Translations under genes and position numbers: made by a program | Part shown: piece by piece, positions 40,411 to 62,411 of the stretch | Layout: every line of letters starts with the position of its first letter | Numbering within the stretch: position 1 is the stretch's first letter | The notes under the pieces: model-generated | Seen by the model: the letters and a program-made list of their open reading frames with translations, nothing else | Told to the model about the DNA's origin: nothing | Databases searched by the model: none | Source: Bacteroidota bacterium | Lineage (GTDB): Bacteria > Bacteroidota > Bacteroidia > Chitinophagales > Chitinophagaceae | Length of the DNA: 64,000 bases | Direction: 5' to 3' | NCBI GenBank assembly: GCA_947461125.1 | Contig: CANHHX010000002.1 | Coordinates: 25,331-89,330 of the forward strand

Positions 40411-41547
40411 TTATTTTTTGTTTTTTGCGCTGATTCCTTTTTTCCAAAAACTAAAAAAAGAGGGGTAATACCCTTCGGTGTTGGGAAACATCCAGTCTCT
40501 GCTGTCTTTGATGCCTGGGTAATATTCAAAAGCAGGATGTTCTTTTGAAATAAATGTATTTGAAATTTTTAGATCCGCATTTTCATATTGTTTTGTTAGG
40601 ACATCTACTTCACCTGCATACATTATAATCCCATCAATATTTTTTGAAAGTGAAATAATAAAATCTATCACTTTTTCACTCACCGGATAGTTTTTAAAAT
40701 GAGACGGTTCTAATAATAGTACCCTATTAACATTTTCAGTGGCGCGCCAAAGTGGATCTAAATTATAGCTATTATAAAGAAGGGTTGGCTTACTGGTATC
40801 AAGTGTAGGGACCGGTGTTGGTGGCAAATTCGTTTTAAAATCTAGTGTGGTTGTGGATTCTAATGCATTAGGGACGGGCATTGTAGCAATATGCTCGTAA
40901 CTATGATCTAAAAAAGTATGCCGCTGATTTGAAGACGTGTACTTATTGATGTTTTCCTGATTGCAGTAATATTTTTTTGATGAAAAACTTCCAGCCACCC
41001 ACTGCCAACTGCAACTATTACTTGCTAAATCGCCATCTAGTAAATGATAGTACATCCACTTAGCAGGTGTTAGCCAGTGTGATTTTGCGTTGTTACAAAC
41101 CATGGCTGCCAAATACATTCTGATATGATTATGCAAATATCCTGTTGAATAAAACGAATTAATTTGATCATCAATTACCTGAATGCCGGTAGTTGCAGTT
41201 ACAATTGCAGCAGGTATTTGATGATGTAAAAAATCTGGCTGCGTTTGCTTTAAATCAGTAAAGAGATTGTCTTTTTTTACTTGCCAAACCCGTTGATAGT
41301 ATTCGCGCCAAGCAAGTTCTTGTAAAAACTTTTCGATCTCATAGGGTTTGAATCCTTTTTGTAAAACGGCTTCTTTAACTTGCTGAACGCTAATGACGCC
41401 TCTGGATAAATAGGGAGACAAATAGGTTACGTCGCCATTTATAAAATTTCTGGTTTTTGCATACTTTATAGGATTGATAGCATTGATACGCTCAACAACC
41501 AAATCATAAGTAGTTGGAAACATATTTAGATCATTAAGGCTTTGCAT
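40411..41547 (-). CDS. Photolyase/cryptochrome homologue with N-terminal FAD-binding domain (apparently permuted)
   Basis: TYLSPYLSRGVISVQQV...FLQELAWREYYQRVWQ...VIDDQINSFYSTGYLHNHIRMYLAAMVCNNAKSHWLTPAKWMYYHLLDGDLASNSCSWQWVAGSFSSKKYYCNQENINKY, followed by an alpha/beta-like C-terminus. Confidence 0.85.
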   Translation of the reverse strand: MQSLNDLNMFPTTYDLVVERINAINPIKYAKTRNFINGDVTYLSPYLSRGVISVQQVKEAVLQKGFKPYEIEKFLQELAWREYYQRVWQVKKDNLFTDLKQTQPDFLHHQIPAAIVTATTGIQVIDDQINSFYSTGYLHNHIRMYLAAMVCNNAKSHWLTPAKWMYYHLLDGDLASNSCSWQWVAGSFSSKKYYCNQENINKYTSSNQRHTFLDHSYEHIATMPVPNALESTTTLDFKTNLPPTPVPTLDTSKPTLLYNSYNLDPLWRATENVNRVLLLEPSHFKNYPVSEKVIDFIISLSKNIDGIIMYAGEVDVLTKQYENADLKISNTFISKEHPAFEYYPGIKDSRDWMFPNTEGYYPSFFSFWKKGISAKNKK

Positions 41548-42154: not shown

Positions 42155-43639
42155 TTACTTGTCTAGTGATTGTAAATAGTTTTCGGCGATTTGTAAATGC
42201 GTATCTCTTTTTTCTTCGGACATTTTATCAAATGTTTTGACGAGCATGCCTATCCGTGGATTTTGTAAAAAGAAACTACGGTGTACGTGCATAAATCGCC
42301 AAAACAAACCATCCCAAATAGGTTGCCATGTTCCCTTTTCATAATCACTCATTTTCATGAGGTAATTACTGCCACTAATGTAAGGTTTGGTGGTCATGAG
42401 TCCGCCATCTGCAAACTGAGTCATACCATATACATTGGGCACCATCACCCAATCGTAAGCATCAATAAACATTTCCATAAACCACTTATGCACTTCGTCC
42501 GGATCAAATTCACACAACAACATAAAATTACCAAGTACCATGAGTCTTTCTATATGATGCGCATAGCCTGTTTTCAAAATCTTTTTTATGGTACTATCTA
42601 TAGGTGCTATGCCGGTATCACCCGTCCAAAAGGTTTTTGGTATTTTTCTTTTAAACTGCCAGTAATTGGTGGTTCGTTGTTTTGTTCCTTCGCGTTCATA
42701 AACAAGTCGTATAAATTCACGCCAGCCAACAATTTGTCGAATAAAACCTTCTAATGAATTGAGCGGAATATTTTTTGCGGCACCTACACGTATTGCCGCA
42801 TCCACAATTTCCTGTGGTGTAAGAAGACCTATGTTTAACATGGGGGATAAAACCGAATGGTATAAAACAGATTCTTTTTGAACAATAGCGTCTTCGTAAA
42901 CGCCAAAATTTTCGAAACGTTCCTCTAAAAATTGATCAAGCCATTTTTTAGATTCTACAAAATCAATAGCAAATAAATGTTGCTTACTTATGTCTCCATA
43001 ATTGTTCGGAAAGTTTTTTTGAACATACTGCTCCGCTTCACTTATATAATCATTAACGGCGCTTACTGGAAGTTCTGGTACTATTTCTTTTTTAGGAAAC
43101 TTAGCGCGATTATCTGCATCAAAAGTCCATTTGCCTCCTTCTGGTTTACCTTCCGGCGTTAGTAACAGGTTACGCTGCTTTCTTTGGGTGGTATAAAAAT
43201 CGGTTTGAAAATATTTTTTTTTGCTAGTAAAATAATTTTTCGTGCCAGAAAGTGTATTTAAAAAACTGGGGCTTTCTTTTATAGCTAGCTGTAAATTATA
43301 GTTAACACAAGCTGCTTTTATGCGTCTCATTAACAAATAATCTACCGGATCAATCATATCAATTGCCGTATATTTTTGCTTGCCTAAATAAGCAATGAGG
43401 AGCCTGCAATCATTGAGTTTGTTTGTGCTATCAATATACTGTACCTGATAACCCTCATGTAACAGATACTGCTCATAGGCTTTCATAGACGCTCTATGGA
43501 GTATAAGTTTTTCTTTATGAAAGGGATATTGTGTAAAAAACAGATGCTCTTCCACTAAATAGTGGCGCATGTTTTTATCGAGTACTGCTGATTGATTAAA
43601 AAGCTGATGAGGAAAAATAAGGACGGCCTGCTTTGACAT
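42155..43639 (-). CDS. FeS-BCP/PhrB-type cryptochrome/photolyase-related protein, Fe-S cysteines mostly absent
   Basis: VLIFPHQLFNQSAVLDKNMRHYLVEEHLFFTQYPFHKEKLILHRASMKAYE; VESKKWLDQFLEERFENFGVYEDAIVQKESVLYHSVLSPMLNIGLLTPQEIV; MVPNVYGMTQFADGGLMTTKPYISGSNYLMKMSDYEKGTWQPIWDGLFW. Confidence 0.92.
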   Translation of the reverse strand: MSKQAVLIFPHQLFNQSAVLDKNMRHYLVEEHLFFTQYPFHKEKLILHRASMKAYEQYLLHEGYQVQYIDSTNKLNDCRLLIAYLGKQKYTAIDMIDPVDYLLMRRIKAACVNYNLQLAIKESPSFLNTLSGTKNYFTSKKKYFQTDFYTTQRKQRNLLLTPEGKPEGGKWTFDADNRAKFPKKEIVPELPVSAVNDYISEAEQYVQKNFPNNYGDISKQHLFAIDFVESKKWLDQFLEERFENFGVYEDAIVQKESVLYHSVLSPMLNIGLLTPQEIVDAAIRVGAAKNIPLNSLEGFIRQIVGWREFIRLVYEREGTKQRTTNYWQFKRKIPKTFWTGDTGIAPIDSTIKKILKTGYAHHIERLMVLGNFMLLCEFDPDEVHKWFMEMFIDAYDWVMVPNVYGMTQFADGGLMTTKPYISGSNYLMKMSDYEKGTWQPIWDGLFWRFMHVHRSFFLQNPRIGMLVKTFDKMSEEKRDTHLQIAENYLQSLDK

Positions 43640-60944: not shown

Positions 60945-62411
60945 TTGGAAAAGCAAAAAATTAATATTGTCTGGTTTAAAAGAGACCTTCGGTTAACCGA
61001 TCATGAACCACTAGTAGCAGCACTTCACGCAGATATCCCCACCGTTTTATTGTATTGTTTTGAGCCCTCCATTATGGCCGGAGAAGATAGCGACCTAAGA
61101 CATTGGCGATTTGTCTACGAATCGATAGTAGACATGCAACTGGAACTCAATAAAAAAAATGCAACGCTCTATTATTTTCATAACGAAGTGAAACCCGTGC
61201 TATTAGGCTTACTAGAAGTCTATGACATTCAAAACATATATTCACATATAGAAGTAGGCAATAAAAAAACCTACGACCGGGATATAGACATACAAGCCTT
61301 TTGTATAGCGTATCAGATTGTTTGGAAAGAATTTCAAATACATGGTGTTATTCGAAAATTAAAATCGAGAAAAGATTGGAAGCAGCGCTGGGAAAAAACC
61401 ATGACATCGCCCATTATAGTTACGCCGGAAAATGATTGGAAAACAATTCAATTAAAAACGGAATTATACGAAGCGCTTAAAGGACCAGCCTTGTCAAAAA
61501 ATATTACAACACCACAACCAAATTTTCAAAAAGGTGGTGAAAGGCTGGCTTGGCGTTATTTAGAAAGCTTTATGCAGGACCGGCACAAAAATTATAGTTA
61601 CCATATATCTAAACCGCTTTTGAGTAGAAAAGGATGTAGTAGGATATCGCCCTATCTTGCTTATGGTAATATTAGTATGCGGTCTGTGTATCAATATACA
61701 TGTGCCGCCTACGCAAATGCCAAAAACAAACGCGCACTTTCTAATTTTATTTCACGTTTACACTGGCACTGTCATTTTATTCAAAAGTTTGAAGACGAAT
61801 GTAGAATGGAATTCGAACATGTGAACAGGGCTTATGACGCGATTACAAAACCTAAAAACGAATCTTATATTTTAGCATGGCAAGAAGGAAAAACAGGTAT
61901 TCCCATTGTAGATGCATGTATGCGTTGTTTAAAGGATACTGGCTATATCAATTTTAGAATGAGGGCCATGGTTGTTTCTTTTTTCGTGTATAATCTTTGG
62001 CAGGATTGGCGGGAGCTTCATTTTTTAGCACGTCAATTTTTAGATTATGAACCCGGTATTCATTACCCACAATTACAAATGCAATCGGGTGTTACCGGCA
62101 TCAATACCATTCGGATTTATAATCCCATTAAAAATTCGCAAGAACATGATAGCGAGGGATTGTTTATAAAACAATGGGTCAAAGAACTCAAAAACGTTCC
62201 CGCCAACCTTATTCATGAACCTTGGAAAATGAGCGCCATTGAACAAGCTTTATACGGTTGTATCATAGATAAAGACTACCCGTCACCCATTGTTGATATT
62301 GAACTATCTAGAAAAAAAGCCAGCGAGATTGTATGGGGTTTTAAAAAAACGGACCATGTGAAAACCGAAGGAAAAAGAATCTTAAAAAAACATACGAGTT
62401 CGTTACCGTAG
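60945..62411 (+). CDS. Cryptochrome/deoxyribodipyrimidine photolyase family protein, TTG start
   Basis: [107 protein letters not shown]. Confidence 0.93.

Follow-up and report, generated by a model that had tools for sequence, protein, structure and literature searches.

Among the closest described systems are the FeS-BCPs, prokaryotic (6-4) photolyase-family proteins with four conserved Cys residues that bind a 4Fe-4S cluster. They include PhrB (4dja), CryB (3zxs), VcPL (7ykn), Cc(6-4)PL (9hnk) and SePhrB (8ijy). What the cluster does in these enzymes is still an open question. PhrB does not tolerate its removal, since the Cys mutants prove insoluble or unexpressed, and the cluster is regarded as a requirement for stability (PMC4619345). 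A large natural clade free of it is a good comparison set. Members of this sort are already on record. A survey of 464 homologues found that 7% lack the cluster Cys, together with Tyr460 (PMC4619345, 2015), subgroup M was later defined as family members without the cluster Cys (PMC9178010, 2022) and several such orthologues have been reported again (PMC12082625, 2025). Subgroup M includes PromaPL of Prochlorococcus, the counterpart of which in marine Synechococcus is Phr2, also without cluster Cys (PMC9426592). Disruption of phr2 in Synechococcus lowers UV-B survival about 1000-fold, and phr2 protects E. coli against UV in a light-dependent manner (PMC9426592).

A Cys-less gene of this family is present in the window analyzed here, a 64,000-nucleotide stretch of Bacteroidota DNA. 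It occupies positions 42155..43639 on the minus strand and encodes 494 amino acids. Pfam assigns the protein to PF04244 (DPRP, 180 bits) and PF03441 (FAD_binding_7, 31 bits). Its solved relatives are 7ykn, 4dja, 8ijy, 3zxs and 9hnk, the top PDB chain match being the Vibrio enzyme (295 bits). Each of the eight nearest PDB chain sequences comes from a Cys-bearing prokaryotic (6-4) photolyase-family protein or a mutant of one, and there is no Cys-less member among the solved structures found as PDB relatives. The protein can be aligned to PhrB over its full length, with both the DPRP N-terminal domain and the photolyase FAD domain present. An AlphaFold2 model, one of the analyses the original prediction had called for, is confident (pLDDT 94.6, pTM 0.93) and has the FeS-BCP fold (TM 0.90-0.94, with 28-33% identity in the structural alignments). 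The open reading frame thus encodes a full-length, conserved member of the family, to which it had been assigned from its sequence. The dN/dS ratio is about 0.12 (~0.11-0.13) in comparisons with four relatives, and the gene is under purifying selection.

What has become of the cluster ligands? PhrB residues C350, C438, C441 and C454 correspond to P346, E434, a gap and P440, so the four Cys that mark an FeS-BCP are all absent. The first ligand site falls within TGIAPID (residues 342-348, 42596..42616, minus strand), where alignment to PhrB pairs C350 with P346. The segment that bears the other three Cys in FeS-BCPs lies at 42290..42358. Read on the minus strand from 42358 to 42290, it translates to residues 428-450, MKMSDYEKGTWQPIWDGLFWRFM, exactly as had been given before. 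The loop is approximately 10 residues shorter than in PhrB, the missing part being PhrB 439-448. Hence the claim of a cysteine-free segment with a shortened loop holds, both from the nucleotides and from the PhrB alignment. A further claim was that a single Cys remains, in NFMLLCEFDP. This Cys, C376, is the one in the C-terminal half; the protein has three in total, and the other two are in its N-terminal half. Displaced ligands were considered and rejected: C376 is opposite PhrB A380, and the rest of the C-terminal half is devoid of Cys.

The pattern extends well beyond this genome. The 247 distinct relatives compared, drawn from Bacteroidota genomes, plasmid records and solved structures, divide into 108 with all four ligands (CCCC) and 139 with none, and not one is mixed. 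The absence of Cys is due neither to chance nor to sequencing error, because every Cys-less relative has none of the four ligands, and these relatives include independent assemblies that are 84-89% identical to the window.

The Cys-less clade has residues of its own at the cluster site. The first-ligand position is Pro in 138 of its 139 rows and Cys in every one of the 108 FeS rows. Six residues are near-invariant in the clade and absent from FeS-BCPs. G343, P346 and D348 surround the position of the first ligand, whereas W438, W442 and D443 belong to the shortened loop, with both Trp retained in 137 of 139 rows. The resulting signature in place of the lost loop is PID and GxWQxxWDGLFW. The position of PhrB Y460 is mostly Phe. 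A Pro/Trp/Asp core (P346-I-D348, W438, W442-D443) probably takes over the structural job of the cluster, with W438 and W442 packing there as the alignment would predict. The most divergent Cys-less member (L159, 3526-4974) is without P346 and both replacement tryptophans, and has LT-A at the ligand sites.

The signature also provides a link with the picocyanobacterial proteins. PMC9426592 gives a reverse primer for phr2 which, once reverse-complemented, translates as WDGLFWS. PromaPL and Phr2 of subgroup M therefore have in common with the 494-aa protein the family, the absence of all four cluster Cys and, from the phr2 primer, WDGLFW. The lineages differ, one being Bacteroidota and the other picocyanobacterial. 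Placement of the 494-aa protein in subgroup M would rest on the Cys-less state, which is how the subgroup is defined, and on this short motif. The observation that the protein is Cys-less is correct, yet this is an already known kind of photolyase.

When 93 proteins are placed in a tree that omits the cluster columns, the Cys-bearing and Cys-less types part along a single branch (SH-aLRT 100). A separate Cys-less group, for which a phylogeny had been suggested as a check, does exist. The Cys-less side includes Chitinophagaceae, Flavobacteriales, Cytophagales, Kapaibacteria and others. Recent loss of the cluster in this particular genome is ruled out by so deep a split. In an even sample of the phylum, 133 of 396 genomes have a family member, approximately 93 of them Cys-bearing and 40 Cys-less. 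No genome of the 396 has both types, when about 9.4 would be expected by chance according to a statistic that ignores relatedness. This suggests, short of proof, that one type takes the place of the other. Cluster-free photolyases are common in Bacteroidota. The presentation of this one as an unusual case is not supported: 139 of the 247 relatives are Cys-less, and such members were reported in 2015 and named as a subgroup in 2022.

The gene has company. The next gene downstream encodes a flavin reductase-like protein of 204 amino acids (PF01613; 41534..42148, minus strand). Also downstream is the gene for a 378-aa photolyase-related protein with an N-terminal FAD domain (40411..41547, minus strand), in which PF03441 is the only Pfam match. 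Its AlphaFold2 model is confident (pLDDT 95.0), and its PDB matches are restricted to the FAD domain. The domain order is reversed, the FAD domain being followed by approximately 130 residues without a PDB match. By description, it resembles the N-terminal-FAD/Z-domain ssDNA CPD photolyases, which appear as Phr7 in PMC9426592. Among 86 Cys-less loci with adequate flanks, a flavin reductase homologue is near the photolyase in 32 and a homologue of the N-terminal-FAD photolyase in 46. The three genes form a photorepair island, the layout of which is repeated across Bacteroidota. Other Cys-less loci add DUF2805, DUF2256, an NAD-binding DUF2867 protein or a further photolyase. The window itself contains another photolyase of 488 amino acids, with a TTG start, at 60945-62411 on the plus strand. 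In loci L069, L097 and L101, photolyases of similar appearance adjoin the Cys-less gene, which suggests a multi-photolyase repair island. Small proteins of the DUF2805/DUF2256 kind recur beside photolyase genes (L048 7470-7739, L069 10047-10325, L097 2385-2669, L101 2402-2668 and L074 5808-5990), the Pfam assignment having been made for those of L048 and L074.

The residues on which photolyase function depends have been kept along with the fold. Lesion and catalytic residues Q306, H366, M371, Y424 and Y430 of PhrB are Q302, H362, M367, Y420 and Y426, the Mg2+ aspartates D179 and D254 are D174 and D250, and the electron-transfer tryptophans W342 and W390 are W338 and W386. Beside the FAD, the Yx3Y of PhrB is replaced by F387 and F391, an Fx3F arrangement reported for some other family members (PMC12082625). 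At the site of the 6,7-dimethyl-8-ribityllumazine antenna of FeS-BCPs, E33 is kept, PhrB D10 is H11 (His or Asn in the clade) and other positions are changed. A search for FO synthase, which would hint at an 8-HDF antenna, gave matches only below the curated cut-off. The gene product is very probably a functional, FAD-dependent DNA photolyase that belongs to the Cys-less subgroup of the prokaryotic (6-4) family, with repair activity and (6-4) specificity presumed. This is supported by the catalytic residues, the all-or-none Cys pattern, the SH-aLRT 100 split, the TM scores, the dN/dS ratio, the WDGLFWS primer, the lack of genomes with both types and the protection conferred by phr2. In such an enzyme, blue light would excite reduced FAD, and this would donate an electron to a UV lesion bound through the conserved lesion residues of the family. 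Oxidized FAD would be photoreduced via W386 and W338, with F387 and F391 adjoining the flavin. The shortened loop and the Pro/Trp/Asp core would stand in for the cluster, thought to be stabilizing in PhrB, and the neighbouring flavin reductase probably helps by keeping the flavin reduced.

Which lesion the Cys-less members repair is in dispute. PMC9426592 proposes CPDs, and not (6-4) lesions, as the possible target of the Cys-less Phr2 of picocyanobacteria, and PMC9178010 places PromaPL among the (6-4) photolyases. What if cluster loss accompanies a change of lesion, making this protein a CPD photolyase? That is unlikely, because the Cys-less clade hardly varies at the PhrB residues linked to (6-4) repair (H366, Y424 and Y430) or at the Mg2+ aspartates, and because this genome already has two other full-length photolyases and a short one. 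That the protein senses light in the manner of a cryptochrome and repairs nothing is harder still to credit. CryB of Rhodobacter, a family member, is cited as exerting regulatory effects, but the lesion-binding residues and the photorepair-gene neighbourhood are conserved here, and the Cys-less homologue phr2 protects in the light. As for a decaying pseudogene or an assembly artefact, nothing was found in its favour and the chance is negligible: ORF length and dN/dS rule out decay, as originally predicted, and the same segment recurs in many independent assemblies.

A working photolyase could have arrived at its Cys-less state by either of two routes, and the term used for it at first, a cluster-free descendant, presupposes loss. 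Cluster-free it is, but descent is unproven, since the Cys-less proteins form a deeply separated sister set, and their nesting within the FeS-BCPs is unsupported. Conversely, the clade may never have had a cluster, which would then be a derived gain of the FeS-BCPs. This is possible but somewhat doubtful, and it is compatible with a working enzyme. One clue is that Cys-less members, unlike FeS-BCPs, share with canonical photolyases (class I, III and DASH) a TGxxxxD motif where the first ligand would be, with G343 and D348 as its Gly and Asp. This is a hint of a possibly old Cys-less state. Canonical photolyases are otherwise distant, with N-terminal PF00875 in place of PF04244 and TM scores of only 0.5-0.6. 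With these as the outgroup and 190 FAD-domain columns, the FeS-BCPs form one clade (support 99). However, the outgroup branch is very long, and trees in which a single FeS subgroup is joined to the Cys-less proteins pass AU tests without rejection (p 0.48-0.69). The primase PriL is cited as having a similarly placed cluster, which favours an old cluster.

Cys-less forms are not confined to cellular genomes. Phage records gave no match, and two viral contigs carry such forms. One is a divergent member (L271, 2875-4425) on an 83-kb contig, whose neighbours, named by eye, are DHFR-thymidylate synthase-like, NUDIX-like and packaging-ATPase-like, so that the contig looks like part of a giant eukaryotic DNA virus. 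The model is also matched by mimivirus R855, with 43% identity across 126 columns.
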